Shown piece by piece: positions 13,375 through 33,975 of a stretch of 64,000 bases of DNA. Under the pieces are notes generated by a model. It was not told the DNA's origin. It searched no databases and saw only the letters and a list, made by a program, of their open reading frames with translations. The number at the start of each line of letters is the position of its first letter. Within the stretch, counting starts at the first letter, position 1. The translations under genes were made by a program, and so were the position numbers. The DNA is from Arcobacter aquimarinus (GTDB taxonomy: Bacteria; Campylobacterota; Campylobacteria; Campylobacterales; Arcobacteraceae), in the NCBI RefSeq assembly GCF_013177635.1, contig NZ_CP030944.1, forward strand, positions 1,984,001 through 2,048,000, in the 5' to 3' direction.

Positions 13375-14306
13375 AACTTCTTAATTCCTTGATTGAATTC
13401 AACAAATTCATTTATTTCTAAATATTTTTTTATTTTTTTATTATCACAAATAGATTCTTTTATATCTCCATTTCTAGGCTGTAAATAATTTATTTTAATA
13501 TTTTTAGAATATTTATGATTTAATACACTTACTAAATTATTTATTGATATTTTTTTAGATGTTCCTACACAAAAAACTTCCCCTGAAACATTTGAATTAT
13601 TCATAGCTTTTATATTTGCTTTTGCTACATCTTTTACATATACAAAATCTCTATACTGTTCACCATTTCCATAAATGTTTGGTATTTCATCGTTTTTAAA
13701 CTTTTTTTCAAAAATTGAAATTACACCACTATAATCACTTGTAGCACTTTGTCTTTCTCCATAAACATTAAAATATCGTAAGCATACAGTCTCTACTCCA
13801 TAAAGTTCACTATATAGTTTCATATATTGTTCACCAATAAGTTTTTCATATCCATAAGGGGAAATAGGTTTAGTAATAGAGTTTTCATTTTTAGGTTGAG
13901 TTGGTTCATCTCCATAAACAGCAGCAGAACTAGAAAAAACAACTCTTTTTACACTATTTAACTTTGCTGACTCCAAAATATTTAAAGTACCTTTTACATT
14001 TACTTCATTTGATAAAAGAGGATTTAATATTGACTCCTGAACTGATACGATAGCAGCTAGGTGATAAATATATTCTATTTTTTTATCTCTTATAATTTTA
14101 TTTATTTCCTCGAAATTTCTAATATCTACTTCTATAAATTGAAATCTATTTTCTTTATCTATAGATTTTATAAACTCTAAATTTTCTTTTGTTCCACTAT
14201 AGAAATTATCTATACCAATAATACAATTATTTTGATCTTTTAAAAGTTCTTCTATTAAATGTGAAGCTATAAATCCAGCACTTCCTGTTAGTAAAATATT
14301 TTTCAT
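13371..14306 (-). CDS. NAD-dependent sugar-nucleotide 4-epimerase
   Basis: Extended SDR family, 311 aa: GSAGFIASHL at 8-17, HLAAIVSVQES, FSSSAAVYGDEP and YGYEKLIGEQ (catalytic Tyr/Lys), then LRYFNVYGERQ. The pattern is that of GalE/WbpP-type UDP-hexose or UDP-HexNAc 4-epimerases. It has a 4-base overlap with the downstream glycosyltransferase gene. It probably supplies a galacto-configured donor. Substrate inferred only from family. Confidence 0.8.
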   Translation of the reverse strand: MKNILLTGSAGFIASHLIEELLKDQNNCIIGIDNFYSGTKENLEFIKSIDKENRFQFIEVDIRNFEEINKIIRDKKIEYIYHLAAIVSVQESILNPLLSNEVNVKGTLNILESAKLNSVKRVVFSSSAAVYGDEPTQPKNENSITKPISPYGYEKLIGEQYMKLYSELYGVETVCLRYFNVYGERQSATSDYSGVISIFEKKFKNDEIPNIYGNGEQYRDFVYVKDVAKANIKAMNNSNVSGEVFCVGTSKKISINNLVSVLNHKYSKNIKINYLQPRNGDIKESICDNKKIKKYLEINEFVEFNQGIKKL

Positions 14307-18650: not shown

Positions 18651-19928
18651 TTACGAAATACTTTCATCCATTTTATATACTACTAAAAATATTATGAAAA
18701 AATATATTAAATATAATACAACTTGGTGTAAAACATAATATTCCAAAAATATATTAAATTCTAATTCTAAATAATATACTAAAAAGAAAAAAACAATACT
18801 ACTAAATAAATAAAGATACTGCCAAATAGCTAGAAACTTAAGTTTATTATAACTTACCAAAGTGATACTTAACGTAGATACAATAAACGTAAAAAAAAAT
18901 ATAATTGCCAAATACTGACTTATTTCTCCAGATATTCTCCATTCTTTTCCAAAAATAATTTCAAATATTGTTGGTGAAAATAAATATATAAATATTGACA
19001 TAGGCAAAGATAACATTAGCAATTTTTTCAATATATTTAAAAATATAGGCATATTCTTAATATTGTTTTTATTATTTTCAGAAATTTTTTCAAAAAATAC
19101 TTGTGATATAGAATTAGCTATTAAAAGACTTGGTATAGAAATCATTTTCTGTGCAAAAAAGAAATATCCAGAAACAGTAATATTAAATACCTTAGGTATA
19201 ACAAAAAATGGAATTTGTAGAGTTAAAGTATTTGACAAATCTGAAATCAAATTATATTTTGGAAAATCTTTATATTTTTTAGCAAGAATAATTATTTTTA
19301 CTAGTTTTATTTTTAATATCAGCCTTTTATTCTTTAAAATATTTTTAGCTAACTTAATATTTGCAAATCCATTTGAAATTATATTTCCTAATATTAATCC
19401 ACTCACTCCAGATTTTATGAATCCTAGAGAAAGTTGAGCTATAGCTAAAACTATAGATTTTAAAATAGTTGCATTTTTTATATCTTTATAGTTTTTTTTT
19501 CTAGTGTTAAAATAATTCAAAATATTAAATAAACCTACTATAAACACTGTGATAGGTACAAAATACAACCAAAAACTTATTTCGTTATTTCCTAATAATT
19601 TTGTAAAATAATTATTAAATATTACAACCAAAATTAAAAGTAATAGAGAGATGAAACAATTTATTATAAATCCTAAAGCAAAAATATTTATAGCATCCTC
19701 ATCTTTTTTAGGAAGCATGATAGCTAATTCGTATCTTCCATTTGCAATACTAGCAAAGATGGAAGTTATAGCCAAAAACAATGCAAGAACACCAAAATCA
19801 TTCGGTGTATATATTCTTGTGAGTATTGGACTAATAGCTATAGGTATTGCTTGTGCTATTGTAGTTCCTGACATAAGAGTGAGGATATTTCTATTAAATT
19901 CTGATTTTGGCTTTAGTTTATTTATCAT
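18651..19928 (-). CDS. wzx: Wzx O-antigen flippase
   Basis: Polytopic membrane protein of about 425 aa with 12 hydrophobic segments. The N-terminal signature (ILTLMSGTTIAQAIPIAISP, then RIYTPNDFG) is typical of Wzx/polysaccharide exporters that move lipid-linked repeat units across the inner membrane. A longer frame begins at 19967. I chose ATG 19928, which overlaps the upstream stop by 11 bases, because the family's N-terminus begins there. Confidence 0.85.
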   Translation of the reverse strand: MINKLKPKSEFNRNILTLMSGTTIAQAIPIAISPILTRIYTPNDFGVLALFLAITSIFASIANGRYELAIMLPKKDEDAINIFALGFIINCFISLLLLILVVIFNNYFTKLLGNNEISFWLYFVPITVFIVGLFNILNYFNTRKKNYKDIKNATILKSIVLAIAQLSLGFIKSGVSGLILGNIISNGFANIKLAKNILKNKRLILKIKLVKIIILAKKYKDFPKYNLISDLSNTLTLQIPFFVIPKVFNITVSGYFFFAQKMISIPSLLIANSISQVFFEKISENNKNNIKNMPIFLNILKKLLMLSLPMSIFIYLFSPTIFEIIFGKEWRISGEISQYLAIIFFFTFIVSTLSITLVSYNKLKFLAIWQYLYLFSSIVFFFLVYYLELEFNIFLEYYVLHQVVLYLIYFFIIFLVVYKMDESIS

Positions 19929-21726
19929 TAAACGTTTCTTTAGGTTTCCATAATTCTTGTATTTCATTTCTTGACTTTAGAAACAAATCCGATACTTTAT
20001 CATAATTTTCTGGAAAGTTCAAACCTAATTTATTAAGTAAATTTAAGTCTAAACTTCTTATTCCTCCTGGAGCAGTTAATATCCAAGCATTTTTAAGTTT
20101 ATAATCAGAAATACTACTTAAAACTCTATAAGCAAATTCATTACTTCCTGAATATCCACCTCCAAGCCATGCAAATTGAAAAAACTTTGCTTCCAATATT
20201 ATATTTGCACCTGGTGTTGCTCCTGTAGTATCAATTAGATATGTCTGTCTATAATTATTTTTAATACTACTTAACTGATTTATGTAATTCTTCTGTTCAT
20301 CATCTACTTTTAGTCCTCCAAGTATATCTATTTTATGTATTTGTTCTTTAATTGAAGTATTAAGTCTATAAGGATTTTCATAAGCGTTATCTATAATTAT
20401 ATAAATAGATAAAGATATTACAATTCCTACAATAATTTTTAAATTTTTAATCATGTTATGATACTTATCAAGTATAAAAACTAAACTTATTATACCTGCC
20501 ACAGGAAATATATATGATAGATTAGAATGAAACCAAATATTATTATTTGTTCCAAAAGATACCGCTATACTTAAATATGATAAAAAAATAAATATTGAAA
20601 AACTTTGAAAAAATATATTAAATTTTTCTTTTATATTATTTTCATTAAAAATATATATTAAAAAAATATATATTGAAAAAAATAATATTGTAATATAAAA
20701 TTTACTAGGCACATCAAAAGGAATAATTACAGGTAAATATAAAATATAAGCAAAATAACTTATAAAAACAAAACTTAAAACTACTAAAAATAAATTACTT
20801 GAATAAAAATATCTAGTGATCAATAATGAAAACAATAAATAAATAAATAAATAACATTTATTTATTTGAAAATATATATTTTTTGCATTTTCATAAATAG
20901 ATATAAAGATATCTTTAAAAGTGTGACCTCCTCCAAGTAGAGAAAGTCTTTCAATTGATTCTTTCAAATTAATTATATAATTAGATAATCCTCCATCAAA
21001 AAATATTATATGTAAAATGATAATAAAAATAAAAACAAAAGATATAGAAACAATAGCTTTAAAGAAATCTATTTTTTTATAATTAAATATAATAAAAAAT
21101 AAAAATGCAGGTAATAATCCTAACAAAGATGTTGGCTTAGCAATAAAAAGTAAAGATAACGAAACTCCTACATAAAAATATTCTAAACTAAATAATTTTC
21201 CTCTAATTATATTAATACTATTTATACATCGAAACATTGAAGCTAATATTAATATCATTGCAACTAATGAAAACCAATTATAAGAAGGGGTTAATAACCA
21301 CCACATATAATAAGCAAGAGAGGATAGAGATATTATTAAAACAAAATACACCTTATTATAAATATCATAATTTAATTGATATTTTTTTTCTATATATTTA
21401 TAAAGTTCTACGGCAAACCAAAAACTAGCTAACACTAAAATAATGATTCCAAATATTCTAAAAATAGATAAAGTGTAACCTGTTAAATAAAAAAGTAATC
21501 CTGTATAATAATTTTCATGAGTAATAACAGAAAATACATCAAAAGGATATATTGCATTTAAAATATAATAACTATCATCAGTTAAATCAAACCCTCTATC
21601 TGCATTTAAAATTAAAATTCCAATAAGATATATAAATAATCCAAATACAAATAATATATGAAAATTTGATAATCTTAATAAATTTATAATTATTTTTTTA
21701 TTCAAAATTAACTCTTTCTTTTTCAA
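19918..21726 (-). CDS. Large membrane protein, probable GtrC-type glucosyl/glycosyltransferase
   Basis: 602 aa, 10 or more membrane helices, with an early periplasmic loop carrying acidic residues (NADRGFDLTDDSYY, about residues 42-55) similar in placement to lipid-phosphate-sugar-dependent (GT-C fold) transferases. It lies directly downstream of gtrA- and gtrB-like genes and overlaps gtrB by 29 bases. It would therefore be the serotype-specific transferase of a gtr cluster, decorating the chain in the periplasm. Sequence motifs alone would not identify it. Confidence 0.6.
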   Translation of the reverse strand: MKKKELILNKKIIINLLRLSNFHILFVFGLFIYLIGILILNADRGFDLTDDSYYILNAIYPFDVFSVITHENYYTGLLFYLTGYTLSIFRIFGIIILVLASFWFAVELYKYIEKKYQLNYDIYNKVYFVLIISLSSLAYYMWWLLTPSYNWFSLVAMILILASMFRCINSINIIRGKLFSLEYFYVGVSLSLLFIAKPTSLLGLLPAFLFFIIFNYKKIDFFKAIVSISFVFIFIIILHIIFFDGGLSNYIINLKESIERLSLLGGGHTFKDIFISIYENAKNIYFQINKCYLFIYLLFSLLITRYFYSSNLFLVVLSFVFISYFAYILYLPVIIPFDVPSKFYITILFFSIYIFLIYIFNENNIKEKFNIFFQSFSIFIFLSYLSIAVSFGTNNNIWFHSNLSYIFPVAGIISLVFILDKYHNMIKNLKIIVGIVISLSIYIIIDNAYENPYRLNTSIKEQIHKIDILGGLKVDDEQKNYINQLSSIKNNYRQTYLIDTTGATPGANIILEAKFFQFAWLGGGYSGSNEFAYRVLSSISDYKLKNAWILTAPGGIRSLDLNLLNKLGLNFPENYDKVSDLFLKSRNEIQELWKPKETFNDK

Positions 21727-22630
21727 TCACTAATGGTCTTTTTTTGCTATATGCATGAATAGAACCAATATATTCTCCAATAATACCTATAAAAAAAAGC
21801 TGAACAGATGAAAAAAAGAATAGTCCAATTACAATTGGTGCAACTCCCATACTAAAAGTATCCCAAAATATTATTTTTAGTATAAAATAAACAAATGCAA
21901 CAACTAGACTTAGTATTGAAATAGAAAACCCTAACATCGTCGCAAGCCTCAAAGGAACTAAAGAGTGACTTGTAATTCCCAACATAGCAACATCATATAA
22001 AGTAAAAAAATTACTTTTTGTTATACCTTTAAATCTCAAAGGTTGAGAATATTCTATAAAAAATATTTCCAAACCTATTTCAGATATCAATCCTCTAAAA
22101 TAAGGATATGGCTCATCCATTTCTCGTAATATTTCAATAATCTTTTTATCATATAACCCATATCCTGTAAAATTATCTATTAAGTCTATATTTGATAATT
22201 TATTTACAAACCTATAATACAATTTTCTTACATTAAACATAAATTTATTTTCTTCTGAATTCTTTTTAATTCCTACTATACTCTTATATCCTTCTTCCCA
22301 TTTTTTAATAAAATCTGGAATAAGAGAGGCTGGATCTTGCATATCTGCTACAAATAATATAACAGCATCTCCATTTGCTTGTAATAAACCATAATATGGG
22401 GATTTTATCCAACCAAAATTTCTACTATTTACTATTATTTTTATATTTTTATTTTCTTTTGCCAATTCCTTTAATTTTTCAACTGTTGAATCAGTTGATG
22501 CATTATCTATAAAAATATGTTCATATGAATAATTGCTATAGTTTGAAAAAACTTCTTTAATAACTTTTACACATTCATAAATATTATCTTCTTCATTATA
22601 ACAAGGTGTTACAACACTAATTTTTTTCAT
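21698..22630 (-). CDS. GtrB-type undecaprenyl-phosphate glycosyltransferase (GT2)
   Basis: 310 aa. The N-terminal GT-A domain has VVTPCYNEEDNIYEC, IDNASTDSTVEKL and VILFVADMQDP (DxD-like). Two C-terminal membrane helices (about 228-250 and 262-290) follow. This is the architecture of GtrB/DPM1-like enzymes, which move a sugar from UDP-sugar to undecaprenyl phosphate. It is paired with GtrA and a large membrane transferase. Confidence 0.85.
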   Translation of the reverse strand: MKKISVVTPCYNEEDNIYECVKVIKEVFSNYSNYSYEHIFIDNASTDSTVEKLKELAKENKNIKIIVNSRNFGWIKSPYYGLLQANGDAVILFVADMQDPASLIPDFIKKWEEGYKSIVGIKKNSEENKFMFNVRKLYYRFVNKLSNIDLIDNFTGYGLYDKKIIEILREMDEPYPYFRGLISEIGLEIFFIEYSQPLRFKGITKSNFFTLYDVAMLGITSHSLVPLRLATMLGFSISILSLVVAFVYFILKIIFWDTFSMGVAPIVIGLFFFSSVQLFFIGIIGEYIGSIHAYSKKRPLVIEKERVNFE

Positions 22631-22639
22631 TAATTTTCC

Positions 22640-23002
22640 TCACTTTTTATATACAAAAAATTTATTAAGTAAAAAAGATAGAATAGCAACTGGTATTATT
22701 GCCAAAAAACCAGCAAAATATTCATCTATATTAAATAATTTAAAAAATTTAATTAATAAGATATTTGTAATAAACAATACAAAATAAACAACTATAAATT
22801 TAAAAATTAAGTTTTTAGCATTTGATTTAAATACATACCTACTTATGGTTTTAAAATTAAATAAAATCCCTAAAATTGTAGCAAACAAAACAGCTACAAT
22901 ATAACTAAACCCAAAAAATATAAATAATGCATAAATAGAGTATCCAAATATAGTATTTATTATTCCTACTAAAATAAAATTAATGATTTGTTTTTTTAAC
23001 AC
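22640..23002 (-). CDS. GtrA-family membrane protein
   Basis: 120 aa with four membrane helices, opening FILVGIINTIFGYSIYALFIF, then a central ATILGILFNFKTISRYVF. Both are typical of the GtrA family, proposed to flip undecaprenyl-phosphate-linked sugar. It starts with GTG and overlaps the rfbH end by 23 bases, with GAGAG as ribosome binding site. Confidence 0.85.
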   Translation of the reverse strand: MLKKQIINFILVGIINTIFGYSIYALFIFFGFSYIVAVLFATILGILFNFKTISRYVFKSNAKNLIFKFIVVYFVLFITNILLIKFFKLFNIDEYFAGFLAIIPVAILSFLLNKFFVYKK

Positions 23003-24320
23003 AAAACTCTCTAATTTTCTTCATCATATAATTAATCGCATCATCACTCATACCAGGATATAATCCTATCCAAAAACTATCATTCATGATTTTATCTGTT
23101 ACTTTTAAGTCACCAACAATTCTATAATCTTGATCTAAAACCATATGGTCAAACATAGGATGTCTCGTCATATTTCCAGCAAATAAATTTCTTGTTTGTA
23201 TTTTATTTGCTTCAAGATACTCTACAAGGTCATTTCTCGTAAAGTTTACACCATCTTTTAAAGTCATCATAAATCCAAACCAACTTGGATCAGAGTTTGG
23301 TTGTGTCTCTACTAAATGTAATTGTTCTAAATCTTTTAATCCATCATATAGTTTTTTTCGATTCTCTTTTCTTTTTTCAACAAATGTTGGGAATTTTTCA
23401 AGTTGAGCACATCCAATTGCAGCTTGCATATCTGAAACTTTTAAATTAAATCCAAAATGAGAATAAACATATTTATGATCATAACCTTTTGGAAGTGTAC
23501 CAAAGCTTTGAGAGAATCTACATCCACAAGTATTGTCAATTCCACTTTCACACCAACAATCTCTTCCCCAGTCTCTCATTGAAAGCATAATTTTTTTAAG
23601 AAGTAAATTATCTGTATAAGTAGCTCCTCCCTCACCCATAGTCATATGATGTGGTGGATAAAATGAACTAGTACCTATATCTCCCCAAGTTCCAGTTGGT
23701 TTTCCTTCATAAGTAGAACCTAAAGCATCACAATTATCTTCTATTAACCAAAGATTATGTTTATCACAAAATTCTTTTACAGCTCTTAAATTAAATGGAT
23801 TCCCTAAACTATGAGCTATCATAATAGCTTTTGTTTTAGGACTAAGTGCTAGTTCAAGTTGTGTTACATCGACATTTGCATGAGTTAAATCCATATCTAC
23901 AAATACAGGAACTGCACCATATTGAACAATAGGAGCTACTGTTGTTGGGAATCCAGCAGCAACAGTAATAACTTCATCACCTCTTTTTACCTGCCTATCT
24001 TTAAGTAGTGGAGAAGTTAAAGCATAAAAGGCAAGAAGATTTGCACTACTTCCTGAATTAACTAAAAAAGCCCATCTAACACCAAGATATTTTGACAATT
24101 GTTTCTCAAATTTTTTAGAATAATCACCATATGTAAGCCAAAAATCAAGTGAACTATCAACTAAATATTGCATTTCTATTTCATCAAATACTCGACCTGC
24201 ATAATTTACTCTACTTTCACCATCTACAAATTTTTTTTCTTGAGCTGGTTTATGAATTAATTCATAATATTCTTTTGTTTTTTGTAAAATCTCTTGTTTT
24301 AACTGTTCTTGTTTAGTCAT
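22980..24320 (-). CDS. rfbH: CDP-4-keto-6-deoxyglucose-3-dehydrase (E1, RfbH/DdhC type)
   Basis: 446 aa, the usual family length. A DegT-like fold in which the PLP lysine is replaced by His: FYPPHHMTMGEGGA, His near residue 222. It carries the cysteine-rich [2Fe-2S] segment RDCWC...NTCGCRF near 257. Both are hallmarks of E1, which removes the C3 hydroxyl of CDP-4-keto-6-deoxy-D-glucose with an iron-sulfur reductase (E3). No E3 gene is seen in the window, so electrons must come from elsewhere. Works with rfbF and rfbG. Confidence 0.92.
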   Translation of the reverse strand: MTKQEQLKQEILQKTKEYYELIHKPAQEKKFVDGESRVNYAGRVFDEIEMQYLVDSSLDFWLTYGDYSKKFEKQLSKYLGVRWAFLVNSGSSANLLAFYALTSPLLKDRQVKRGDEVITVAAGFPTTVAPIVQYGAVPVFVDMDLTHANVDVTQLELALSPKTKAIMIAHSLGNPFNLRAVKEFCDKHNLWLIEDNCDALGSTYEGKPTGTWGDIGTSSFYPPHHMTMGEGGATYTDNLLLKKIMLSMRDWGRDCWCESGIDNTCGCRFSQSFGTLPKGYDHKYVYSHFGFNLKVSDMQAAIGCAQLEKFPTFVEKRKENRKKLYDGLKDLEQLHLVETQPNSDPSWFGFMMTLKDGVNFTRNDLVEYLEANKIQTRNLFAGNMTRHPMFDHMVLDQDYRIVGDLKVTDKIMNDSFWIGLYPGMSDDAINYMMKKIREFCVKKTNH

Positions 24321-25242
24321 TTAATAATTCCTTGATCTTATTTAAATGCTTTTGATTATGTAAAAAGAAAAAATTTGTTTCAATAGTTTCATCTGTCATA
24401 ACTTTTATCTCTTTTAATTTATCACCAATAACTAAATAACATCTATAACCCATATCTTTAAATAATTCAATAATTTCATTTGGATGATAGTTAAACTTTG
24501 CAGACCATTTTCTAAGCATTTCAGTAAATACTATAGGCTTATAATTACTTATTGTTTCAACACCACCTTTAAAAGTTAATAATTCAGCACCTTCAACATC
24601 ACACTTAATAAAATCAATTTTTGTTAATTTATTTTCTTTAAAATAATTATCTATAGTATCAACGTGGCATTTTACTTCAATATTTTCCTTTTCTTCATTC
24701 ATAATAGCTGCTGATGCATTAACTGAACCTTCTTTGTGGAAATAAAAAGTTAAATCTTGTTTTTTATCTGATAACCCAAAATTATTTATTTTTATCTTTG
24801 CACCATTTATCTTTACATTTCCTACTAGACTTTCATAGGTTGAAGGAATTGGTTCAAATGTATGTATATCAATATTTTTTTTAGCCTTATAAAGTCCTAT
24901 AGAATACCATCCCATATTTCCCCCAATATCAAATACTGTATCATTATCATTTATAAGATTAAAAATCATATTCGAATCTTCTTTTTCATAATTTTTAAAA
25001 TTTAAAATCTCAATAGGTGCTATTCTTTCATCAAACCTATTACAAACTATTTTTATACCTAGTTCTCTAGAAGTCATTATTACACTATTATCTGTTATCT
25101 CTATTTTTTGGATGTCTCTACTTTTTATAAACTCTGCATATTCAAATAACCTATCATGATTTTCTTTATACATTCTTGAAATAAAATCAGCTTTATCAAC
25201 TTTACCATTTAAATACTCTTTTTCTAGTTTTTCTATACCCAT
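24313..25242 (-). CDS. FkbM-family methyltransferase
   Basis: 309 aa. SAM-binding sequence DTVFDIGGNMGWYSIGL near residue 95, HTFEPIPSTYESL, and FIKCDVEGAELLTFKGG in the C-terminal half. All are characteristic of FkbM-type O-methyltransferases, which often methylate sugar hydroxyls. The gene overlaps rfbH by 8 bases and the upstream SDR gene by 10, so it is part of the dideoxyhexose module. It may methylate the branched sugar. Target inferred. Confidence 0.82.
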   Translation of the reverse strand: MGIEKLEKEYLNGKVDKADFISRMYKENHDRLFEYAEFIKSRDIQKIEITDNSVIMTSRELGIKIVCNRFDERIAPIEILNFKNYEKEDSNMIFNLINDNDTVFDIGGNMGWYSIGLYKAKKNIDIHTFEPIPSTYESLVGNVKINGAKIKINNFGLSDKKQDLTFYFHKEGSVNASAAIMNEEKENIEVKCHVDTIDNYFKENKLTKIDFIKCDVEGAELLTFKGGVETISNYKPIVFTEMLRKWSAKFNYHPNEIIELFKDMGYRCYLVIGDKLKEIKVMTDETIETNFFFLHNQKHLNKIKELLND

Positions 25243-26270
25243 AAATAACTCCTTATTGTTTTTCTAAATCCATCTATTATAGAAATACTCGGTTTCCAAC
25301 CTAATTTCTCAAGTTTATCTATATTAATATTATTTCCTTTTACTGGACTTTCCAAATAATTTTTACTTTGTTCAACAAATACAGCTTTTAACTTTTTTTC
25401 TGGAAACATATTTATGAGTACTAGTGCTAATTCTCTAATAGATATTATAGATTTAGAATTAGCCATGTTATAAGCATTATTTTTTTCACCATTTAAAAGT
25501 ATCATAAAGAAAGCTACTGTAGCATCAGATAAATAGCAAAATGCCCTTTTAACACTTCCATCACTTTTCATCTCAATATTTTCATTATGAATAATATTTT
25601 TTACAAAATCAGCAAAAACTCTTCCATCATCTAATTTCATTCCTGGACCATAAGTATGAAATGGTCTTACAATTTTTATAGGAATATTATACTGATGTCC
25701 ATAACTTACACAAAGATTTTCTCCCATTCTTTTACTTTCACCATAACAAGCTCTAACTGTTGTTGGATCTAAATAACCATATTTATCTTCATTTATAACT
25801 TCCCCATCATTTAATTGCCCATAAACTTCACCACTACTAAAGTAAAGATATCCTTCAACTTTATTTTCTATAGCTAAATCTAAAGTGTTTTTTGTACCTA
25901 AAATATTTGGCATTATTACCCCTACTGGATCAATATTATAATACTTTGGAGAAGCTGGACTTGCAGCATGAACAATATAATCAATTTTTTCAATTAAATT
26001 TATTTCATTAGATACATCTTGAACTATTATTTTAAAATTCTCATCACTTAAATAGTTTGAAAATCTTTCTTTTGTATGCTTTTCATTCCTAACTAAAGAT
26101 ATTACTTTGCAAGGAGAATGCTTTAAAATGTCATTATTTAAAAGTAATAATGTTTCTACCATATAAGCAGGTAAAAAACCATTTGCACCAGTTACTAAAA
26201 CTGTTTTATTTGCAAATCGTTCCCAATCAATCGATGAATTTATAATTTTATTAAAATCTTCTAATATCAT
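25233..26270 (-). CDS. NAD(P)-dependent extended SDR, candidate CDP-sugar ketoreductase
   Basis: 345 aa: GANGFLPAYM nucleotide-binding loop near residue 28, HAASPASPKYY, FSSGEVYG and YGESKRMGE with catalytic Tyr/Lys, RPFHTYGPGM. The motifs resemble UDP-glucuronate decarboxylase/4,6-dehydratase-like SDRs. Lying between the TPP enzyme and fkbM-rfbH, it is the best candidate for the last reduction in a dideoxyhexose or yersiniose-type pathway (YerF role). The family alone does not show substrate. AGGA is present six bases before ATG. Confidence 0.72.
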   Translation of the reverse strand: MILEDFNKIINSSIDWERFANKTVLVTGANGFLPAYMVETLLLLNNDILKHSPCKVISLVRNEKHTKERFSNYLSDENFKIIVQDVSNEINLIEKIDYIVHAASPASPKYYNIDPVGVIMPNILGTKNTLDLAIENKVEGYLYFSSGEVYGQLNDGEVINEDKYGYLDPTTVRACYGESKRMGENLCVSYGHQYNIPIKIVRPFHTYGPGMKLDDGRVFADFVKNIIHNENIEMKSDGSVKRAFCYLSDATVAFFMILLNGEKNNAYNMANSKSIISIRELALVLINMFPEKKLKAVFVEQSKNYLESPVKGNNINIDKLEKLGWKPSISIIDGFRKTIRSYLWV

Positions 26271-26349
26271 TTTTGTCCTATAATTTTATTGAAATACTTT
26301 TTTTATAAACTTAGTAAAACTTGAACATCTGTTATAAATATCTTTATAT

Positions 26350-28101
26350 TTAATTTTCTAAAGGTTTTATGATCATAAGCAAAGCTAATTCATCTTTTGG
26401 GATAAATGGATGCATGTCTTCAATGGGTTTATTTACTATTAATTTTGGTTCTACAGTTGTCATTTTAATTGGTAATTCAATATTTATTAACTCTGGCTCA
26501 TTATTTGACAATATATCTTTTAGTTCAATTTCTAGTTTAGTTATATCGTCAATTTTTCTAGCTTTAAGACCATATGCTTTTGTAATTTCAACTAAATCTG
26601 GAACACTATAATCATCAATAGTTCCTAGATATTTTTTATCAAAATAAAGTTCCTGAAATTGTCTTACCATTCCTAAATTTTTATTATTTAAAACAAATAT
26701 TTTTATAGGTAATTTTCTTCTTTTTATTACTTCTAGTTCTTGAATATTCATCTGAATACCTCCATCACCTGCAATAACAATAGTTCTTTTATTTGAACCT
26801 ATACAAGCACCAATGGCTGAAGGAAGAGCAAATCCCATTGCACCCATACCACCAGAAAATAAAACTCTTTGAGAATTTTTAGTATTTAGTGATTGAGCAG
26901 TCCACATTTGATGCTGTCCAACATCTACACATATATTTTCATCTATTAAATAACTAGAAATGACAGAAATCACATGATTAGGTATTTTTAAATTATTATC
27001 TATATCTACAATAGAAGAAAATTGATTTTTATATTCTTCTAATTTTTTTAACCATTTTGTTATATCAATATCTATTTGGTATTGACTTAAATTATTTATA
27101 AAATCTTTAATATTACAGTTTATTTCTACATCAACTTTTATTTTAGAACCTAATTCATTTTTATCAATATCAACTTGAATTATTTTTGCTTCTCTTGCAA
27201 ATGTATCTAAGCTTGTTCCAGTCTGTCTAGTATCTAATCTAGAACCTAATACAAGTATTAAATCACTGTTTGCTAAAGCTAAATTTCCATATCTATTTCC
27301 ATATGAACCAATCAATCCTAAATTATATTTAAAATCTTCACTTATTGCATCTTTACCCATTAAAGAGTAAACAACTGGAATATTATACTTATTAACATAA
27401 TTTAACAATTCATCATTAGCATTTGAAAGCCTAACTCCTCCACCAGCTAAAATAATTGGTCTTTCAGATGTTTTTAATAAATTTACAACTTTTTCAATAT
27501 CATTTTGTTCTTTTTTATTATTTTTTAATTTAAAATATTCTTTACTGTCAAAAAAAGATTCTAAAGAATTTATATCAACTTGGCTTCTTTGAATATTCAT
27601 AGGAATATCTACAAGAACAGGACCTTTTCTTCCTTCCTGTGATAAATAATAAGCTTTCTCAAGTTCATATTTTATATTATTCACATCATCTATCATTACT
27701 GCATATTTTACAATTGGTTTTATTATACTTACAATGTCTGTTTCTTGAAATCCAATTTGGCGTACAGTCTTATCATATTTATACTCATAAGTATTAACTT
27801 GACCTGTAATAAACATTGTTGGAACTGAATCAAAATAACAACTTCCAATAGGGGTTATCAAATTTGTTGCTCCTGGTCCACTTGTAGCGAATCCAACTCC
27901 AGACTTTCCCGTTATTCTTGCATACCCTTCTGCTGCAAATCCTACACCTTGTTCATGAATACAATTTATTACTTCCATATCTTCATATTTGTCAATTGAA
28001 TGATAAATATGAGCTATCGCTCCTCCAATATATCCAAATGTTTTATTAATATTTTTATTTAATAAAAATTCTATTATATAATCTGAAATTTTTATATTCA
28101 T
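26350..28101 (-). CDS. TPP-dependent acetolactate synthase-like enzyme, candidate YerE-type
   Basis: 583 aa with the three domains of the acetohydroxyacid synthase family. The N-terminal Pyr domain has the catalytic Glu in CIHEQGVGFAAEGYAR (near residue 50). A middle domain may bind FAD. The C-terminal PP domain has GDGGIQMNIQE (near 442) and NNKNLGMVRQ for thiamine diphosphate/Mg. A true branched-chain amino acid enzyme would be expected near ilvH, and none is present. Placed right behind rfbG, it matches YerE, which adds a two-carbon unit from pyruvate to the 4-keto group of CDP-3,6-dideoxyhexose. The ATG at 28101 overlaps the rfbG stop as ATGA. Confidence 0.75.
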   Translation of the reverse strand: MNIKISDYIIEFLLNKNINKTFGYIGGAIAHIYHSIDKYEDMEVINCIHEQGVGFAAEGYARITGKSGVGFATSGPGATNLITPIGSCYFDSVPTMFITGQVNTYEYKYDKTVRQIGFQETDIVSIIKPIVKYAVMIDDVNNIKYELEKAYYLSQEGRKGPVLVDIPMNIQRSQVDINSLESFFDSKEYFKLKNNKKEQNDIEKVVNLLKTSERPIILAGGGVRLSNANDELLNYVNKYNIPVVYSLMGKDAISEDFKYNLGLIGSYGNRYGNLALANSDLILVLGSRLDTRQTGTSLDTFAREAKIIQVDIDKNELGSKIKVDVEINCNIKDFINNLSQYQIDIDITKWLKKLEEYKNQFSSIVDIDNNLKIPNHVISVISSYLIDENICVDVGQHQMWTAQSLNTKNSQRVLFSGGMGAMGFALPSAIGACIGSNKRTIVIAGDGGIQMNIQELEVIKRRKLPIKIFVLNNKNLGMVRQFQELYFDKKYLGTIDDYSVPDLVEITKAYGLKARKIDDITKLEIELKDILSNNEPELINIELPIKMTTVEPKLIVNKPIEDMHPFIPKDELALLMIIKPLEN

Positions 28102-29195
28102 ACTGCCCATTCTATATTTTTTGATTTTGCATCTGCAATATAACTTTCTAAATCACTTTTAGTTAATATTTTTTTGTTATTTTCATAATAAGCCTTATAC
28201 CAATTTACAGTTTTTTTAAATGTAGTTTGACTATCCCAAACATTTTTCCATTTTAAAAGAATATGAGCCTTTGAACAATCAAGTTTTAATAAATTTGCCT
28301 CATGAAATTGAGTTGAATCTTGATTTATTTCATAATCTATTTTATTCCAATATTTTTTTACATTTTGAACAACTTCTTCTACGGTAATACTTCCTTCATC
28401 ACTAGATCCAAAATTCCAAGCTTCTGAAAATTGTATTTTTTCTTCAAGAAGTTTTTGCCCTATAGCTAAATATCCACTTAGAGGTTCAAGTACATGTTCC
28501 CAAGGTCTTGTTGCTTTAGGATTTCTAATACTTACTTTTTTACCTTGAGATACAGAAACCATAATATCTGTGATGAGTCTATTTTTAGCCCAATCTCCAC
28601 CACCTATTACATTTCCAGCTCGGCAAGTTGAAAGTAAAGTATTATGAGTTTTTTTATACTCTTTAATATTAAAATATGAATTTCTATATGAAGAAGCTAA
28701 GATATCAGCACATCCTTTAGATGAACTATAGGGATCATATCCACCCATAGGGTCATTTTCTCTATATCCCCAAATCCATTCTTTATTTTCATAAGCTTTA
28801 TCACTTGTAATATTTACAATAGCTTTTACATTATTATATTTACAAGCTTCAAACACTTTTAAAGTTCCTATTACATTTATTTCATAAGTTTCTATTGGAT
28901 TTTCATAAGATAATCTTACTAACGGTTGAGCTGCAAGATGAAATACAATATCTGGTTTATACTCTTCAAAAGTTTGATTTAATTTATCCAAATCTCGTAT
29001 ATCTCCAATAATTGAAATAATATCTAAATTTAAGAGTTCTATATGATTTGGATTTGTAGGAGCTTCAAGTGAATATCCAACTACTTTTGCTCCCATTTGA
29101 TTTAACCAATAAACAAGCCATGAACCTTTGAATCCAGTATGTCCTGTAACTAATACAGTTTGATTTTTATAAATACCAGAAAAAAGATTTTCCAT
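28098..29195 (-). CDS. rfbG: CDP-glucose 4,6-dehydratase (RfbG/DdhB)
   Basis: 365 aa extended SDR: VLVTGHTGFKGSWLVYWL near the N-terminus, HLAAQPLVRLSYENP, NITSDKAYENKEW and DPYSSSKGCADI with catalytic Tyr/Lys. These are diagnostic of CDP-glucose 4,6-dehydratases. It makes CDP-4-keto-6-deoxy-D-glucose. A frame start exists at 29210, but ATG 29195 overlaps the rfbF stop as TAATG and gives the family's normal N-terminus. Confidence 0.93.
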   Translation of the reverse strand: MENLFSGIYKNQTVLVTGHTGFKGSWLVYWLNQMGAKVVGYSLEAPTNPNHIELLNLDIISIIGDIRDLDKLNQTFEEYKPDIVFHLAAQPLVRLSYENPIETYEINVIGTLKVFEACKYNNVKAIVNITSDKAYENKEWIWGYRENDPMGGYDPYSSSKGCADILASSYRNSYFNIKEYKKTHNTLLSTCRAGNVIGGGDWAKNRLITDIMVSVSQGKKVSIRNPKATRPWEHVLEPLSGYLAIGQKLLEEKIQFSEAWNFGSSDEGSITVEEVVQNVKKYWNKIDYEINQDSTQFHEANLLKLDCSKAHILLKWKNVWDSQTTFKKTVNWYKAYYENNKKILTKSDLESYIADAKSKNIEWAV

Positions 29196-29968
29196 TACCA
29201 AATTTTCCATGGAGCTTTGCCACTATCCCAAAGTTTATTTAAATCATTTTTATCCTTTAAGCTATCCATTGGGGACCAAAATCCAATATGTTTATATGTA
29301 AACATTTCTCCATCTTTTGCTAAATCTTTAAGTGGTGCTTGCTCAAATATTGTCTTATCACCTTCAGTTATATAATCAAACACTTTTGGTTCACAAACAA
29401 AATATCCTGCATTTATAAAATGTCCATCACCCTTTGGTTTCTCTTGAAAACTTACTACTTTGCTATTTATGGTTATTTCTATAGCTCCAAATCTTCCATC
29501 TGGTTGATGAGAAGTCATGGTTATTGCTTTTCCATGTGATTTATGGAATTTAACAAGCTCTTCTATGTTTATATCAGCTACACCATCTCCATAAGTAAGC
29601 ATAAAAGTCTCATTTCCAATAAAATTTTGGGCTCTTTTTATTCTTCCACCTGTCATACTATTTAGTCCTGTATCAAGAAGTGTTATTTTCCATGGTTCAC
29701 TAGAGTTATTTAAAACTTCCATTTTTCCTGTTTTCATATCAATAGTAACATCACTTTGATGTAAAAAATAGTTTGCAAAATATTCTTTTATATAATAACC
29801 TTTGTATCCAAGAAGAATAACAAAATCATTAAATCCATATTTTGAATAAATTTTCATAATATGCCAAAGTATTGGTTTCCCACCAACTTCTACCATTGGT
29901 TTTGGTCTAATATCAGTTTCTTCTGATAGTCTTGTTCCATAACCACCAGCTAACAATACTACTTTCAT
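29195..29968 (-). CDS. rfbF: Glucose-1-phosphate cytidylyltransferase (RfbF/DdhA)
   Basis: 257 aa, the family length. GGYGTRLSEETDIRPKPMVEVGG at the N-terminus is the nucleotidyltransferase signature, with TYGDGVADI in the active site. It activates glucose-1-phosphate with CTP, the first step to CDP-dideoxyhexoses. It begins a sub-operon after a 90-base gap behind wbpE and has AAGGA upstream of its ATG. Confidence 0.93.
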   Translation of the reverse strand: MKVVLLAGGYGTRLSEETDIRPKPMVEVGGKPILWHIMKIYSKYGFNDFVILLGYKGYYIKEYFANYFLHQSDVTIDMKTGKMEVLNNSSEPWKITLLDTGLNSMTGGRIKRAQNFIGNETFMLTYGDGVADINIEELVKFHKSHGKAITMTSHQPDGRFGAIEITINSKVVSFQEKPKGDGHFINAGYFVCEPKVFDYITEGDKTIFEQAPLKDLAKDGEMFTYKHIGFWSPMDSLKDKNDLNKLWDSGKAPWKIW

Positions 29969-30058: not shown

Positions 30059-31150
30059 TTAGCCCAAATTTTCACAAATATATTCAATCTCTTCATCCGT
30101 AACATAAGGATTCATAGGTAAACTCATGATTTCTTCTGATACTATTTCTGATATTGGGAAATCACCTTTTTTATATCCAAGATATATAAAACACTCTTGT
30201 AAATGTAAAGGCATAGGATAATGTACTGCAGTTGGTATTCCAGCAAGTTTTAGTTTTTCTTGTAATTCATCTCTATTTTTTACTCTTATTGAGTATTGTG
30301 CCCAAGCTGATGTAGTTTTTTTATCTACATAAGGTAAAACTATATTTGATTTATTTTCTAAAGCTTTTGTATATTTAGAAGCTACTTCTGCCCTTTTTGC
30401 CAAATCTTTTGGATAATATTTTAGTTTTACATTTAAAATAGCTGATTGCATAGTATCAAGTCTTCCACCCATACCTATATATTTATGATGATACCTTTTC
30501 GATTGACCATGAAGTCTTAAGCTTTTCATCTTATTTGCTAAATTTTCATCATTTGTAAATACAGCTCCACCATCTCCATAACATCCAAGTGGTTTAGCTG
30601 GGAAAAATGATGTAGTTGAGATATCTGCAAGTGCAGAATCGGTAATACCATTATATGTACTTCCAAAACTTTGAGCACCATCAATGATTACTTTAAGATT
30701 ATGTTTTTTAGCTATTTCACTTATTTTATCCATATCTGCTGGTTGCCCATAAATTGATACAGGAATAATAGCTTTTGTTTTTGGTGTAATCTTTTCCTCT
30801 ATTTTATTTGGATCAATATTATAAGTTTTTTCATCGATATCAACAAATACAGGAGTTGCTCCTAAAAAAGCTATTGTTTCAGCTGTTGCTATAAAAGTAA
30901 AAGGAGTAGTTATTACTTCATCACCTGGTTTTATATCAAGTGCCATCATAGCAAGTAACAAAGCATCTGTTCCATTACTACAAGATACTGCATATTTTGC
31001 ACTTGTAAATTCTTCTAGTGATTTTTCTAGTTCTTGTACTTCATTTCCCATAATAAAGTTACAATTTCTTGCCACTTGTAATATAGCATTTTCTATCTCT
31101 TCTTTATAAAGTTCATGTTGATATTGTAAGTTTGCGAAATCTATCTTCAT
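30059..31150 (-). CDS. wbpE: WbpE-type sugar-nucleotide aminotransferase (DegT/DnrJ/EryC1)
   Basis: 363 aa PLP enzyme: GNEVQELEKSLEEF, CSNGTDALLLAMMAL, TPFTFIATAET, IIDGAQSFG and the PLP Lys in FFPAKPLGCYGDGGA. It converts the 3-keto product of WbpB to UDP-2-acetamido-3-amino-2,3-dideoxy-glucuronic acid. The neighbours wbpA, wbpB and wbpD supply the rest of the pathway, which strengthens the name. Confidence 0.92.
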   Translation of the reverse strand: MKIDFANLQYQHELYKEEIENAILQVARNCNFIMGNEVQELEKSLEEFTSAKYAVSCSNGTDALLLAMMALDIKPGDEVITTPFTFIATAETIAFLGATPVFVDIDEKTYNIDPNKIEEKITPKTKAIIPVSIYGQPADMDKISEIAKKHNLKVIIDGAQSFGSTYNGITDSALADISTTSFFPAKPLGCYGDGGAVFTNDENLANKMKSLRLHGQSKRYHHKYIGMGGRLDTMQSAILNVKLKYYPKDLAKRAEVASKYTKALENKSNIVLPYVDKKTTSAWAQYSIRVKNRDELQEKLKLAGIPTAVHYPMPLHLQECFIYLGYKKGDFPISEIVSEEIMSLPMNPYVTDEEIEYICENLG

Positions 31151-31152
31151 TT

Positions 31153-31731
31153 TTACTCTTCTATTAAAATTAAATTATCATTTTCTATTTTATATTTGCT
31201 ATTATCAAAATTATCAATAGCAATACTATTTTCATCAAATTTTAGTGTATTTCCAGCTTTTGAAACCCATCCAATTTGACGAGCAGGAACTCCAACCATC
31301 AAAGAATATGGTTTTACATCTTTATTTACAACTGTTCCACTACCAATAAGTGCATATTCACCTATTGTTACACCACAAACGATAGTTGCATTTGCACCAA
31401 TAGAACAACCCTTTTTAAGAAGAGTTCTCTTAAACTCTTCTCGTCTAACTATAAATGCTCTAGGATTTGTAACATTCGTAAAAACCATAGAAGGTCCTAA
31501 AAAAACATCATCTTCTACTTCTACACCCTCATAAATTGAGATATTGTTTTGAACTTTAACACCATTTCCAATATTTACTTTTGGACCAACTACACAATTT
31601 TGTCCAAAAGAACAATTATTACCAATATTTGAGCCACTTAAAATATGTGAAAAATGCCATATTTTTGTATCATCACCAATAATTACATTATCGTCCACAT
31701 ACGATGATTTATGAGCAAAATAAGAAGCCAT
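31153..31731 (-). CDS. wbpD: WbpD-type UDP-3-amino-sugar N-acetyltransferase
   Basis: 192 aa left-handed beta-helix protein with hexapeptide repeats ([57 protein letters not shown]). It acetylates the 3-amino group to give UDP-2,3-diacetamido-2,3-dideoxy-glucuronic acid. It is packed 2-3 bases from wbpE and wbpB. Confidence 0.92.
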
Positions 31732-31734
31732 AAT

Positions 31735-32703
31735 TTATCCTAAAACTTTTTTACAAAAGGGATGATATTCACCCTGAAGTCCAAGAGCAGGAAGGTTTCT
31801 AATAACAGAAACTATATTTATAGAATTTCTAGCCTCATCAAGTCCAAATCCTCCACCATTTAAAATATGTTCATAAGATCTAGTATGTAAATCTGTAAAT
31901 CCTTCGCTAAATTCAAATTCTTCACCATCTACAGTTATACTTCTAAAAGTAGTTTTACCTGTTGCTTTTATTTCTTCTGGAATATAGTCATAATTTACAG
32001 ATAAGAACCATCTAACATTTGCATTTTTTAACTTCATAAATCCAGCATTTGCATCTGCTTGCTTTAAATGCACTAAGTTTTCTTCAATAGGGCCAAATAT
32101 CCAAGATAACATATCAAAAAAATGAACACCTATATTTGAAGCAATTCCACCTGATTTATTTTCATCCCCTTTCCAAGAAACAAAATACCATTTACCTCTA
32201 CTTGTAAGATATGTCAAATCAATGTCATATATTTTATTTGGGTTTTTTTCTAACTCTTTTGCTATTTTATTTTTTAAAGCTATAATAGAATCATGAAGTC
32301 TTAATTGTAAAATATTATAAACTTTTTTTCCAGTTTCTTCTTCTATTATTTTTAATTGGTCTATATTATGAGGATTTAAAACTAATGGTTTCTCACAAAT
32401 AGCATGAGCACCATTTTTAAGTGCAAATCTTATATGAGAATCATGTAAATAGTTTGGTGTTGTAATTCCAATATATTCTATTTTTTTATTTCCATCTCTA
32501 TGCCATTTATCTACAAATCTATCAAACCTTTCAAATTCAGTAAAAAAATGAGCTTGAGGGAAATTACTATCCATTATACCTATTCCATCATAAGGATCTA
32601 GTGCAGCTACAAGTTCATTTCCTGTCTCTTTTATAGCTTTCATATGTCTTGGTGCTATATATCCACTAGCACCTATTAGTGCAAAATTTTTTTTGTTTGG
32701 CAT
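31735..32703 (-). CDS. wbpB: WbpB-type UDP-GlcNAcA 3-dehydrogenase (Gfo/Idh/MocA)
   Basis: 322 aa: GASGYIAPRHMKAI Rossmann start, ITTPNYLHDSHI, CEKPLVLNPHN and GGIASNIGVHFFDML, all typical of Gfo/Idh/MocA oxidoreductases of the WbpB/WlbA type. It oxidises C3 of UDP-N-acetylglucosaminuronic acid, often with 2-oxoglutarate-driven NAD recycling. Second gene of the wbpA operon. Confidence 0.92.
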   Translation of the reverse strand: MPNKKNFALIGASGYIAPRHMKAIKETGNELVAALDPYDGIGIMDSNFPQAHFFTEFERFDRFVDKWHRDGNKKIEYIGITTPNYLHDSHIRFALKNGAHAICEKPLVLNPHNIDQLKIIEEETGKKVYNILQLRLHDSIIALKNKIAKELEKNPNKIYDIDLTYLTSRGKWYFVSWKGDENKSGGIASNIGVHFFDMLSWIFGPIEENLVHLKQADANAGFMKLKNANVRWFLSVNYDYIPEEIKATGKTTFRSITVDGEEFEFSEGFTDLHTRSYEHILNGGGFGLDEARNSINIVSVIRNLPALGLQGEYHPFCKKVLG

Positions 32704-32706
32704 TTT

Positions 32707-33975
32707 TTATAATCTCCATGTTGGATTTTCAACGATGCCTTTAACATCGATGATAATTGATTTACCATTTGACATATTTTCATAGTCTGCAGTTGTGATT
32801 TCCTTAAATTTATCATGTCCAACTGCAACTATAATAGAATCATATTTTTTACTATTTAATGGTAATTCATCAATAAAGTTAAGTTTTTTTGTCTCTTTAT
32901 CACTTCTATCTACCCAATAATCATAAACTTCTACATTACACTCATACTCTTCAAGTTCTTTGATTATATCAAGTACTTTTGAATTTCTCATATCAGGACA
33001 ATTTTCTTTAAAAGTTACACCCAATACCAACACATTTGCATTTTTAAGTTTTTTATCAAATTTAACCATTTTTTTAATAGCCTTATCTGCTATAAGCTTA
33101 CTCATACCGTTATTTATTTGTCTTGCTCCCAGAATAAGATTTGGTATGTATCCTAAACTTTGAGCTTTATGAGTTAAATAATATGGATCAACACCTATAC
33201 AGTGTCCACCAACTAGTCCAGGTGTAAGTTTAATAAAATTCCATTTTGTAGCTGCTGCTTCTATAACATCATGAGTATTGATATTCATAAGATCAAAAAT
33301 CATTGCAAGTTCATTTATAAGTGCAATATTTACATCTCTTTGAGTATTTTCTATAACTTTTGCAGCTTCTGCTACTTTTATAGTAGGAGCTAAGTGTGTA
33401 CCTGCGATGATAATTGATTTATATAAATCATCTACTTTTTTAGCTATTTTGGGAGTTGAACCTGAAGTGATTTTAAGTATTTTTGTAACTGTATGTTCTT
33501 TATCTCCCGGATTAATTCTTTCAGGAGAATATCCACAGAAAAATGTTTCATTAAACTTTAATCCACTAAATCTTTCTAAAATAGGCACACACACTTCTTC
33601 TGTAACACCTGGATATACCGTACTCTCATAAATCACAATATCATCTTTTTTTAAAATTCTTCCAACTGTTTCTGTTGATTTTACAATAGGGGTTAAATCA
33701 GGTTCGTTATTATCATCAATAGGTGTAGGAACGGTAACTATATAAATATTACAATCCTTAATATCATCTACATTTAATGTAAACTTCATTCCATTTTTTA
33801 TAGACTCTCTTACTTGTTTTTCATTTAATTCCAAGGTTCTATCAAAACCACTATTTAGTTCTTCTATTCTTGGTTTATTAATATCAAATCCAACTACTTC
33901 ATATTTTTCACTAAAAGCATGAGCTAAAGGAAGCCCTACATACCCTAGACCTATAACGCATATCTTATCTTTCAA
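32707..33975 (-). CDS. wbpA: UDP-GlcNAc 6-dehydrogenase (WbpA)
   Basis: 422 aa nucleotide-sugar dehydrogenase: GLGYVGLPLA at residues 9-18, YESTVYPGVTEE, catalytic Cys in LVGGHCIGVDPYYL (near 259), and a C-terminal UDP-binding domain starting NVLVLGVTFKENCPDMRNS. It oxidises UDP-GlcNAc to the uronic acid, the entry step to the diacetamido-uronic acid. First gene of the locus, behind promoter repeat copy B. It is preceded by AAGGGGAAG. Confidence 0.93.
   Translation of the reverse strand: MKDKICVIGLGYVGLPLAHAFSEKYEVVGFDINKPRIEELNSGFDRTLELNEKQVRESIKNGMKFTLNVDDIKDCNIYIVTVPTPIDDNNEPDLTPIVKSTETVGRILKKDDIVIYESTVYPGVTEEVCVPILERFSGLKFNETFFCGYSPERINPGDKEHTVTKILKITSGSTPKIAKKVDDLYKSIIIAGTHLAPTIKVAEAAKVIENTQRDVNIALINELAMIFDLMNINTHDVIEAAATKWNFIKLTPGLVGGHCIGVDPYYLTHKAQSLGYIPNLILGARQINNGMSKLIADKAIKKMVKFDKKLKNANVLVLGVTFKENCPDMRNSKVLDIIKELEEYECNVEVYDYWVDRSDKETKKLNFIDELPLNSKKYDSIIVAVGHDKFKEITTADYENMSNGKSIIIDVKGIVENPTWRL

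Follow-up and report, generated by a model that had tools for sequence, protein, structure and literature searches.

The stretch of DNA analysed here (the window) comprises 64,000 nucleotides, C1:1984001-2048000 of the 2,520,808-base genome of Arcobacter aquimarinus, and contains an O-antigen locus in which a yersiniose-type branched sugar is likely made. Positions 19918-29968 of the minus strand form one run of overlapping or closely spaced genes, from rfbF to a gene for a 602-amino-acid membrane protein, in the order rfbF, rfbG, a thiamine diphosphate (ThDP, or TPP) enzyme, a short-chain dehydrogenase/reductase (SDR), an FkbM-family methyltransferase, rfbH, a GtrA-like gene, a GT2 glycosyltransferase and the membrane protein (Table 1). 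The reading of the whole locus as making a CDP-linked C4-branched 3,6-dideoxyhexose of the yersiniose type, probably methylated, with the SDR in place of c4 (the reductase usual in such loci), is held to be probable rather than secure, and the SDR is likewise the favoured candidate for the ketoreductase of the pathway. The core of the locus is of a known kind; the exchange of c4 for the SDR and the widespread absence of an E3 reductase look new.

In the proposed pathway RfbF would form CDP-glucose, RfbG would convert it into the 4-keto-6-deoxy sugar and RfbH would remove the 3-hydroxyl group with electrons from a reductase not of the E3 type. This route to CDP-4-keto-3,6-dideoxyglucose, already put forward in a first-pass annotation made from the sequence alone, is backed by family matches. 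All the genes named in that annotation (rfbF, rfbG, the TPP enzyme, the SDR, FkbM and rfbH) are present, with RfbF, RfbG, RfbH and FkbM passing curated cut-offs, and the ATGA coupling it described between rfbG and the TPP gene agrees with the coordinates, by which the second ATG of the TPP gene (28101) overlaps the rfbG stop. The YerE-like enzyme would then decarboxylate pyruvate and add the two-carbon unit at C4, the SDR would reduce the side-chain ketone with NADPH, replacing the lost c4, and FkbM would methylate a hydroxyl of the product. The GtrB-like GT2 would finally transfer the sugar to undecaprenyl phosphate, GtrA would flip it, and it would be added to the O-antigen outside. From the TPP step on we infer every reaction, as well as the order of methylation and the undecaprenyl phosphate route; the enzyme families, the separation from IlvB, the conserved catalytic features and the recurring neighbourhood can be read directly in the sequences.

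The best match of the TPP enzyme among PDB sequences is 5ahk from Pseudomonas protegens, with 385 bits versus 322 for the best plant acetohydroxyacid synthase (AHAS). The title of this entry is acetohydroxy acid synthase Pf5, and we take it to be PpYerE. The window enzyme, for which a YerE-like role is predicted, is 38% identical to it and 35% identical to the IlvB of its own genome. On the IlvB model it scores 491.7 bits, below the cut-off of 538.35, and it has no IlvH/IlvN partner, whereas the separate IlvB encoded elsewhere in the genome reaches 1032 bits (model cut-off 905) and has IlvH directly behind. In a tree of 29 proteins the window enzyme groups with 5ahk and with proteins from loci of other phyla (100/100), and the six IlvB/IlvG sequences stand apart (93/80); 5ahk, the sole characterised YerE-like row, sits on a long branch whose exact place the tree does not fix. 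Constraining the window enzyme to group with IlvB costs 92 log-likelihood units (approximately unbiased (AU) test, p-AU 1.5e-6), and on the tree and this test its identification as a biosynthetic IlvB was rejected. The earlier proposal of a YerE-like enzyme distinct from IlvB has thus been upheld by phylogeny and by the presence of the genome's own ilvB-ilvH elsewhere.

The predicted structure of the enzyme (mean pLDDT 83.4) has JanthE (8rph) as its best fold match, with Z 42.9 over 566, followed by plant AHAS (40.0) and 5ahk (39.9), which are tied. PpYerE and JanthE, the best relatives by sequence and by fold respectively, share with it the canonical GDG ThDP motif; its own motif, GDGG..N, lies at 448-455 and, together with the catalytic Glu (E53), is invariant in the group A1. 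Sequence and model together support a YerE-like enzyme and not an IlvB. JanthE and YerE have both been characterised as enzymes that accept ketones (PMC12247030). A review speaks of more than 200 YerE-like loci, and because such loci are already known a further enzyme of this type is not new in kind.

Relatives of the TPP enzyme were collected at three levels. In the family, 10/104 genomes match at E <= 1e-100, six of them (the window genome included) at 74-100% identity, and in the phylum 17/397 match at E <= 1e-105; 22 of the 23 distinct Campylobacterota genomes were fetched, the window genome being excluded and G156, with the same E-value and identity as G300, being omitted. A public scan gave a best 80 loci with 44-77% identity to the TPP enzyme, of which 78 were used after removal of L103 and L156 (no TPP reading), and 77 for residue counts. 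The sets overlap (for instance, L087 is L006 and L088 is L036), so that counts from the 22 loci and from the public scan are not additive. The best 80 span Campylobacterota, Paenibacillus, Geobacter, Elusimicrobia, Omnitrophota, Methanoregula and others. Among the 22 Campylobacterota loci, rfbH is found in 17 and c4, an SDR-fold reductase of about 307 amino acids, in 16, usually between the TPP gene and rfbH (L006 ends within c4); the 78 public-scan loci include rfbF in 48, rfbG in 52 and rfbH in 60. The gene order is not due to chance, since this combination of gene types is met again in Campylobacterota, Bacillota, Thermodesulfobacteriota and other groups.

Residues were counted in 11 rows of clade A from the phylum and in the 77 public-scan rows. 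The position of the AHAS tryptophan is occupied by F in 5ahk, in 9/11 clade A rows and in 68/77 public-scan rows (W in the genome's own IlvB), and the Q of an RQTG motif is present in 5ahk, in all 11 clade A rows and in 76/77 public-scan rows (V in the own IlvB). Clade B enzymes, which are 35-40% identical to the window enzyme, differ at both positions, with T at the first (11/11) and A, L, S or V instead of the Q; therefore, these residues mark clade A and 5ahk and not every enzyme that could act in the manner of YerE.

The presence of an SDR in the locus, noted in the first-pass annotation, is confirmed; its type has had to be revised, as it is unlike the c4 usual for this TPP clade and closer to the CDP-ketose reductases, c4 persisting at most as a trace. 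Its nearest relatives are the SDRs of L051 (56% identity) and of L095 and L115 (49% each), the next ones reaching at most 39% over the full length. All three share a locus with a YerE-like gene: L051, from another family of the phylum, has the order rfbF-rfbG-aminotransferase-TPP-c4-SDR-FkbM-rfbH, L115 (Geobacter) rfbF-rfbG-rfbH-SDR-TPP, and L095 (a "Cyanobacteria" metagenome-assembled genome) FkbM-rfbF-TPP-SDR. L095 and L115 are on separate branches of the TPP tree. In the SDR tree the four TPP-linked SDRs fall in a 14-row group (99/97) with HS5.17, SDRs linked to IspD/TarI and three others, internal relations not being settled by the tree, and this group is apart from both the dehydrogenase-linked group and UDP-xylose synthase.

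HS5.17, from Campylobacter jejuni HS:5, carries out the NADPH-dependent reduction of CDP-6-D-fructose, as does Mnp2, and its Arg56 binds the NADP phosphate and its Asp212 the cytosine (PMC10918830). In each of the four TPP-linked SDRs the corresponding columns hold R and D, as against D and N in UDP-xylose synthase. The window SDR has neither the NAD-binding Asp nor the Asn at the base-contact column of UDP-xylose synthase, and it shares with the CDP-ketose reductases the sequence group, the NADP Arg, the cytosine Asp and the N-terminal helix, residues which are not exclusive to them. Its model (pLDDT 91.9) has 8v4h as best VIA match, with Z 40.5 and a root-mean-square deviation of 2.0 over 326 residues including the N-terminal helix, compared with Z 37.8 over 304 for UDP-xylose synthase. 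Because residues, tree group and fold match to 8v4h agree, the best, though unproven, reading of the SDR is that of a reductase acting with NADPH on the ketone of a CDP-linked sugar. The similarity to HS5.17 covers the fold with its N-terminal helix and the NADP and cytosine residues; the differences are the low identity (29%), the proposed substrate, which would be a ring sugar with a side-chain ketone, and the partner. No IspD/TarI cytidylyltransferase is adjacent to the SDR in the window, whereas one lies directly in front of its homologues in the 4/4 plasmid records viewed (of 6 found), and because this partner is missing the SDR is classed as related to the CDP-ketose reductases and not as a member. 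Mnp2 of Streptococcus pneumoniae 35A is likewise an NADPH-dependent CDP-6-fructose reductase; the comparisons given here are with HS5.17.

The 79 bases between the stop of the TPP gene and the start of the SDR gene resemble the start of c4 as it occurs behind the TPP gene in relatives, where intact copies are present. Among 1000 dinucleotide shuffles, 5 reached the highest local score obtained with eight relatives and 2 the sum of the eight scores; individually, the lowest counts per 1000 shuffles were 2 (L037), 3 (L006), 24 (L043) and 43 (L034). Over 17 bases, a length chosen after the alignment had been seen, the summed identity to seven c4 starts is 91/119, a value reached at 3/127,967 window positions on both strands, namely the site itself and two unrelated ones; one of the summed scores excludes L043. 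A search of the own genome for c4 elsewhere gave no clear copy, with only a weak match of 34 bits. The gap probably contains a degenerate trace of the 5' end of a c4 gene, most of which has gone. The open reading frame at 13371-14306, considered as a displaced c4, scored best as a GalE/TviC-type SDR and has 24-28% identity to c4. A similar trace in L036 (Arcobacter caeni) was unsupported, its score being 72 against a background of up to 92.

RfbH shows the cysteine pattern C197-x57-C255-x1-C257-x7-C265, a spacing that is presumably that of the Yersinia E1 motif, and has His224/His225 where aminotransferases have Lys. The His and the four iron-sulfur Cys are kept in 18/18 RfbH proteins (that of the window and 17 from related loci), which confirms the E1 features seen at first pass. 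The same annotation had reported E3 as missing. No E3 gene is seen in the locus, so this part stands, but the gap is not special to this locus. A search at E <= 0.001 for PF00175 (NAD_binding_1), which we take to be a domain of E3 next to Fer2 and an FAD domain, covered 18 RfbH-bearing genomes, that of the window and 17 others from the fetched loci, some of them incomplete. In 14 of the 18 there was no match; the remaining four have matches on different contigs or distant from the locus. The sole match in the window genome, at C1:991699 outside the window, is a ferredoxin-type reductase of 352 amino acids, adjoining genes that by eye resemble a multicomponent monooxygenase. RfbH proteins of this phylum thus often seem to lack an E3-type partner. 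Since the absence is common among the genomes searched, it does not set this locus at a particular disadvantage, and it looks like a new observation and not a local gap.

YerE-type branching could also occur with the acetyl side chain left in place, the SDR being a dehydratase, decarboxylase or epimerase for some other CDP- or UDP-sugar, merely inserted together with FkbM. This is considered unlikely, although several observations agree with it and, like the locus counts that follow them, weigh against the reading preferred here. The SDR retains the Glu of the C5-deprotonating dehydratases and decarboxylases, and HS5.17 has the same Glu; in BLAST, UDP-xylose synthase reaches 145 bits (31% identity) against 139 for HS5.17, and in Foldseek UDP-xylose synthase and 8v4h are tied at 2.2e-25. 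In other Campylobacterota, SDR homologues of 33-42% identity are found close to rfbF and to a gene resembling nucleotide sugar dehydrogenases, and the cytosine Asp is common to them (it is found in seven dehydrogenase-linked SDRs, and Q replaces it in 4/6 IspD/TarI-linked ones), while the NADP Arg column is mixed in the dehydrogenase-linked group and holds S in L082. L051 has c4 and SDR together, therefore the SDR need not replace c4; for the trace itself, four relatives gave high shuffle counts per 1000, namely 154 (L035), 349 (L044), 395 (L036) and 577 (L042). Besides, none of rfbF, rfbG and rfbH was found in 15/78 public-scan loci, eight of them on stretches shorter than 9 kb and seven longer than 17 kb (L097, L099, L116, L131, L138, L143, L151), and in 5/22 Campylobacterota loci (L041, L045, L046, L048 and L006, of 3.2 kb); L095 shows neither rfbG nor rfbH over the 17.7 kb in view, and 35/78 public-scan loci have no reductase of the reference types immediately beside the TPP gene. 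A subgroup of YerE-like genes (L045, L046, L097, L099, L131, L138, L143) stands without rfbF/G/H beside an aminotransferase gene or a small gene that we take to be WbqC-like, which counts against a fixed link of the TPP clade to rfbF-G-H and raises the question whether the YerE-like enzyme there acts on another nucleotide sugar. A side-chain ketoreductase is preferred to an inserted enzyme of other function on account of the NADP-type Arg in place of the NAD-type Asp, the better VIA match to 8v4h and the fact that in L095 and L115, two unrelated loci with no c4 above 100 bits, the SDR adjoins the TPP gene. For the SDR, the retained Glu had suggested a dehydratase; this identification was dropped, as the same Glu occurs in a reductase (PMC10918830).

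Other explanations concern the TPP enzyme. ErwE of Pectobacterium and MMAR_2332 of Mycobacterium marinum are described as carrying out YerE-like branching of deoxy keto sugars with longer donors, preferably hydroxylated longer 2-oxo acids (PMC12247030). A donor of this ErwE type, giving a branch of more than two carbons, is quite improbable here: aldolase and aldehyde dehydrogenase genes for such donors do occur in other Campylobacterota YerE-like loci, but they accompany clade B enzymes, and no reference-type aldolase above 100 bits was found in 78 of the best-80 loci or among the scanned window proteins. On the other hand, rfbF, rfbG, rfbH and an SDR are the usual gene set for ordinary 3,6-dideoxyhexoses, and the SDR might reduce C4 directly, as for paratose or abequose, with the TPP gene idle. 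We give this very little credence: an intact TPP gene that overlaps rfbG and keeps 74-78% identity in five other genomes of the family is probably under selection. A second biosynthetic acetolactate synthase would fit the fold, the similarity to the own IlvB and the annotation of the plasmid records, in which all 15 matches to the TPP enzyme are labelled acetolactate synthase or carry no annotation; given the AU test, the score under the IlvB cut-off and the ilvB-ilvH pair elsewhere, it is scarcely credible.

The closest known counterpart is the yersiniose A pathway of Yersinia pseudotuberculosis, encoded by the genes for DdhA-D, YerE and YerF. Compared by gene type, both are O-antigen loci with proteins of the RfbF, RfbG and RfbH types and a ThDP enzyme of the YerE kind; the window locus differs in having no visible E3 and in containing FkbM and an SDR related to CDP-ketose reductases. 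The expected substrate, CDP-4-keto-3,6-dideoxyglucose, is the same (PMC12247030). The ketoreduction step of yersiniose synthesis was described in 2016 as not characterised (PMC4753412). Among the papers searched, none combined Arcobacter, O-antigen and dideoxy, and among those returned for yersiniose, Campylobacter and O-antigen none was, by title, about such a locus.

A broader interpretation is offered tentatively, as a possibility of less than even standing. The side-chain ketoreductase would be an exchangeable slot, in which a reductase of the CDP-alditol type and an O-methyltransferase replaced a decayed c4, with at least two other lineages alike; the RfbH proteins of the phylum would depend on a reductase unrelated to E3, and the product would be an O-methylated yersiniose, maybe with another side-chain configuration. 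In any case, c4 and the SDR are two sequence-distinct candidate reductases beside closely related YerE-like enzymes, therefore the ketoreduction step and its stereochemistry are directly testable in vitro. Related to this, in much of the phylum E1-type dehydrases must have an electron source that is not an E3 flavoprotein, and the loci provide a wider source of ThDP enzymes that accept ketones and are sought for tertiary alcohol synthesis (PMC12247030).

Table 1. Features of the branched-sugar locus, with window positions and the evidence for each assignment.
Feature	Position	Strand	Evidence
rfbF, glucose-1-phosphate cytidylyltransferase	29195-29968	-	TIGR02623, 406.6 bits (cut-off 300.25)
rfbG, CDP-glucose 4,6-dehydratase	28098-29210	-	TIGR02622, 480.2 bits (cut-off 278.45)
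YerE-like ThDP lyase	26350-28110 (likely start 28101)	-	PDB sequence, fold, tree and AU test, IlvB score below cut-off, motif residues
79-base gap, probable degenerate trace of the c4 5' end	26271-26349	-	Likeness to relatives' c4 starts, in the same register after the TPP gene
SDR akin to the CDP-ketose reductases HS5.17/Mnp2, candidate side-chain ketoreductase replacing c4	25233-26270	-	Tree, cofactor and cytosine residues, fold, shared loci
FkbM-family methyltransferase, proposed O-methylation of the branched sugar	24313-25242	-	TIGR01444, 89.4 bits (cut-off 37.7)
rfbH, pyridoxal phosphate (PLP)/[2Fe-2S] 3-dehydrase (E1)	22980-24320	-	NF011936, 718 bits (cut-off 423)
GtrA-like flippase, proposed flipping of the branched sugar linked to undecaprenyl phosphate	22640-23002	-	PF04138, 53.7 bits; after rfbH in several relatives
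GtrB/ArnC-like GT2 that would transfer the branched sugar to undecaprenyl phosphate	21698-22630	-	PF00535; GT2 homologues in YerE-like loci
602-amino-acid membrane protein, possible periplasmic transferase	19918-21726	-	Position only

The genes that follow in the run share some of their relatives with the TPP gene. FkbM has homologues in loci of the same kind (51% identity in L051, 49% in L054 and 48% in L095), and the GT2 behind GtrA shares 64-69% identity with GT2s from six YerE-like loci of Paenibacillaceae (five from Paenibacillus and one from Fontibacillus) and 54-60% with its Campylobacterota counterparts. The membrane protein matched no Pfam or NCBIfam family at E 0.001, and the proteins of related loci include no homologue of it at E 1e-12. 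By analogy with the GtrABC scheme, the succession of GtrA, the GT2 and the membrane protein suggests transfer via undecaprenyl phosphate, with addition on the outer side of the membrane.

Elsewhere in the window, 30059-33975 contains four genes resembling those for UDP-2,3-diacetamido uronic acids: by models, a nucleotide sugar dehydrogenase (TIGR03026) and a DegT-type aminotransferase (best PseC, under its cut-off), and by eye an acetyltransferase-like and a dehydrogenase-like gene. From this gene set, therefore, the O-unit probably also contains a sugar of the UDP-2,3-diacetamido-uronic-acid type. The gene at 16758-18596 codes for one protein in which a class II glutamine amidotransferase domain (PF13537) is fused to a WbuX/WbpG-like N-acetyl sugar amidotransferase, the latter part scoring 143.8 bits on TIGR03573, under the cut-off of 203.2.

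Some of the related loci have peculiarities of their own. In the clade B loci L038, L039, L040, L048, L049, L050, L052 and L053, aldolase or aldehyde dehydrogenase genes lie near the TPP gene, of the 4-hydroxy-2-oxovalerate aldolase, HpcH aldolase and acylating aldehyde dehydrogenase types (one recognised by a weak NCBIfam match, the others by eye); these loci look ErwE-type, with a longer hydroxy-2-oxo acid as donor, perhaps for ten-carbon sugars like aurantose. In six Campylobacterota loci of families f2 and f3 (L073, L075, L076, L077, L079, L081), rfbF is clustered with an SDR belonging to the same superfamily and with a gene resembling nucleotide sugar dehydrogenases that is 25-28% identical to window 32707-33975, possibly for CDP-glucuronate or CDP-pentose chemistry; L073 also has rfbH, and rfbG is not among its displayed genes. 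Finally, in Arcobacter caeni (L036:11183-13669, the same as L088) a split transketolase-like pair and a methyltransferase-like gene, recognised by eye, lie between the YerE-like gene and c4, and the pair raises the question of a second type of two-carbon transfer in that locus.

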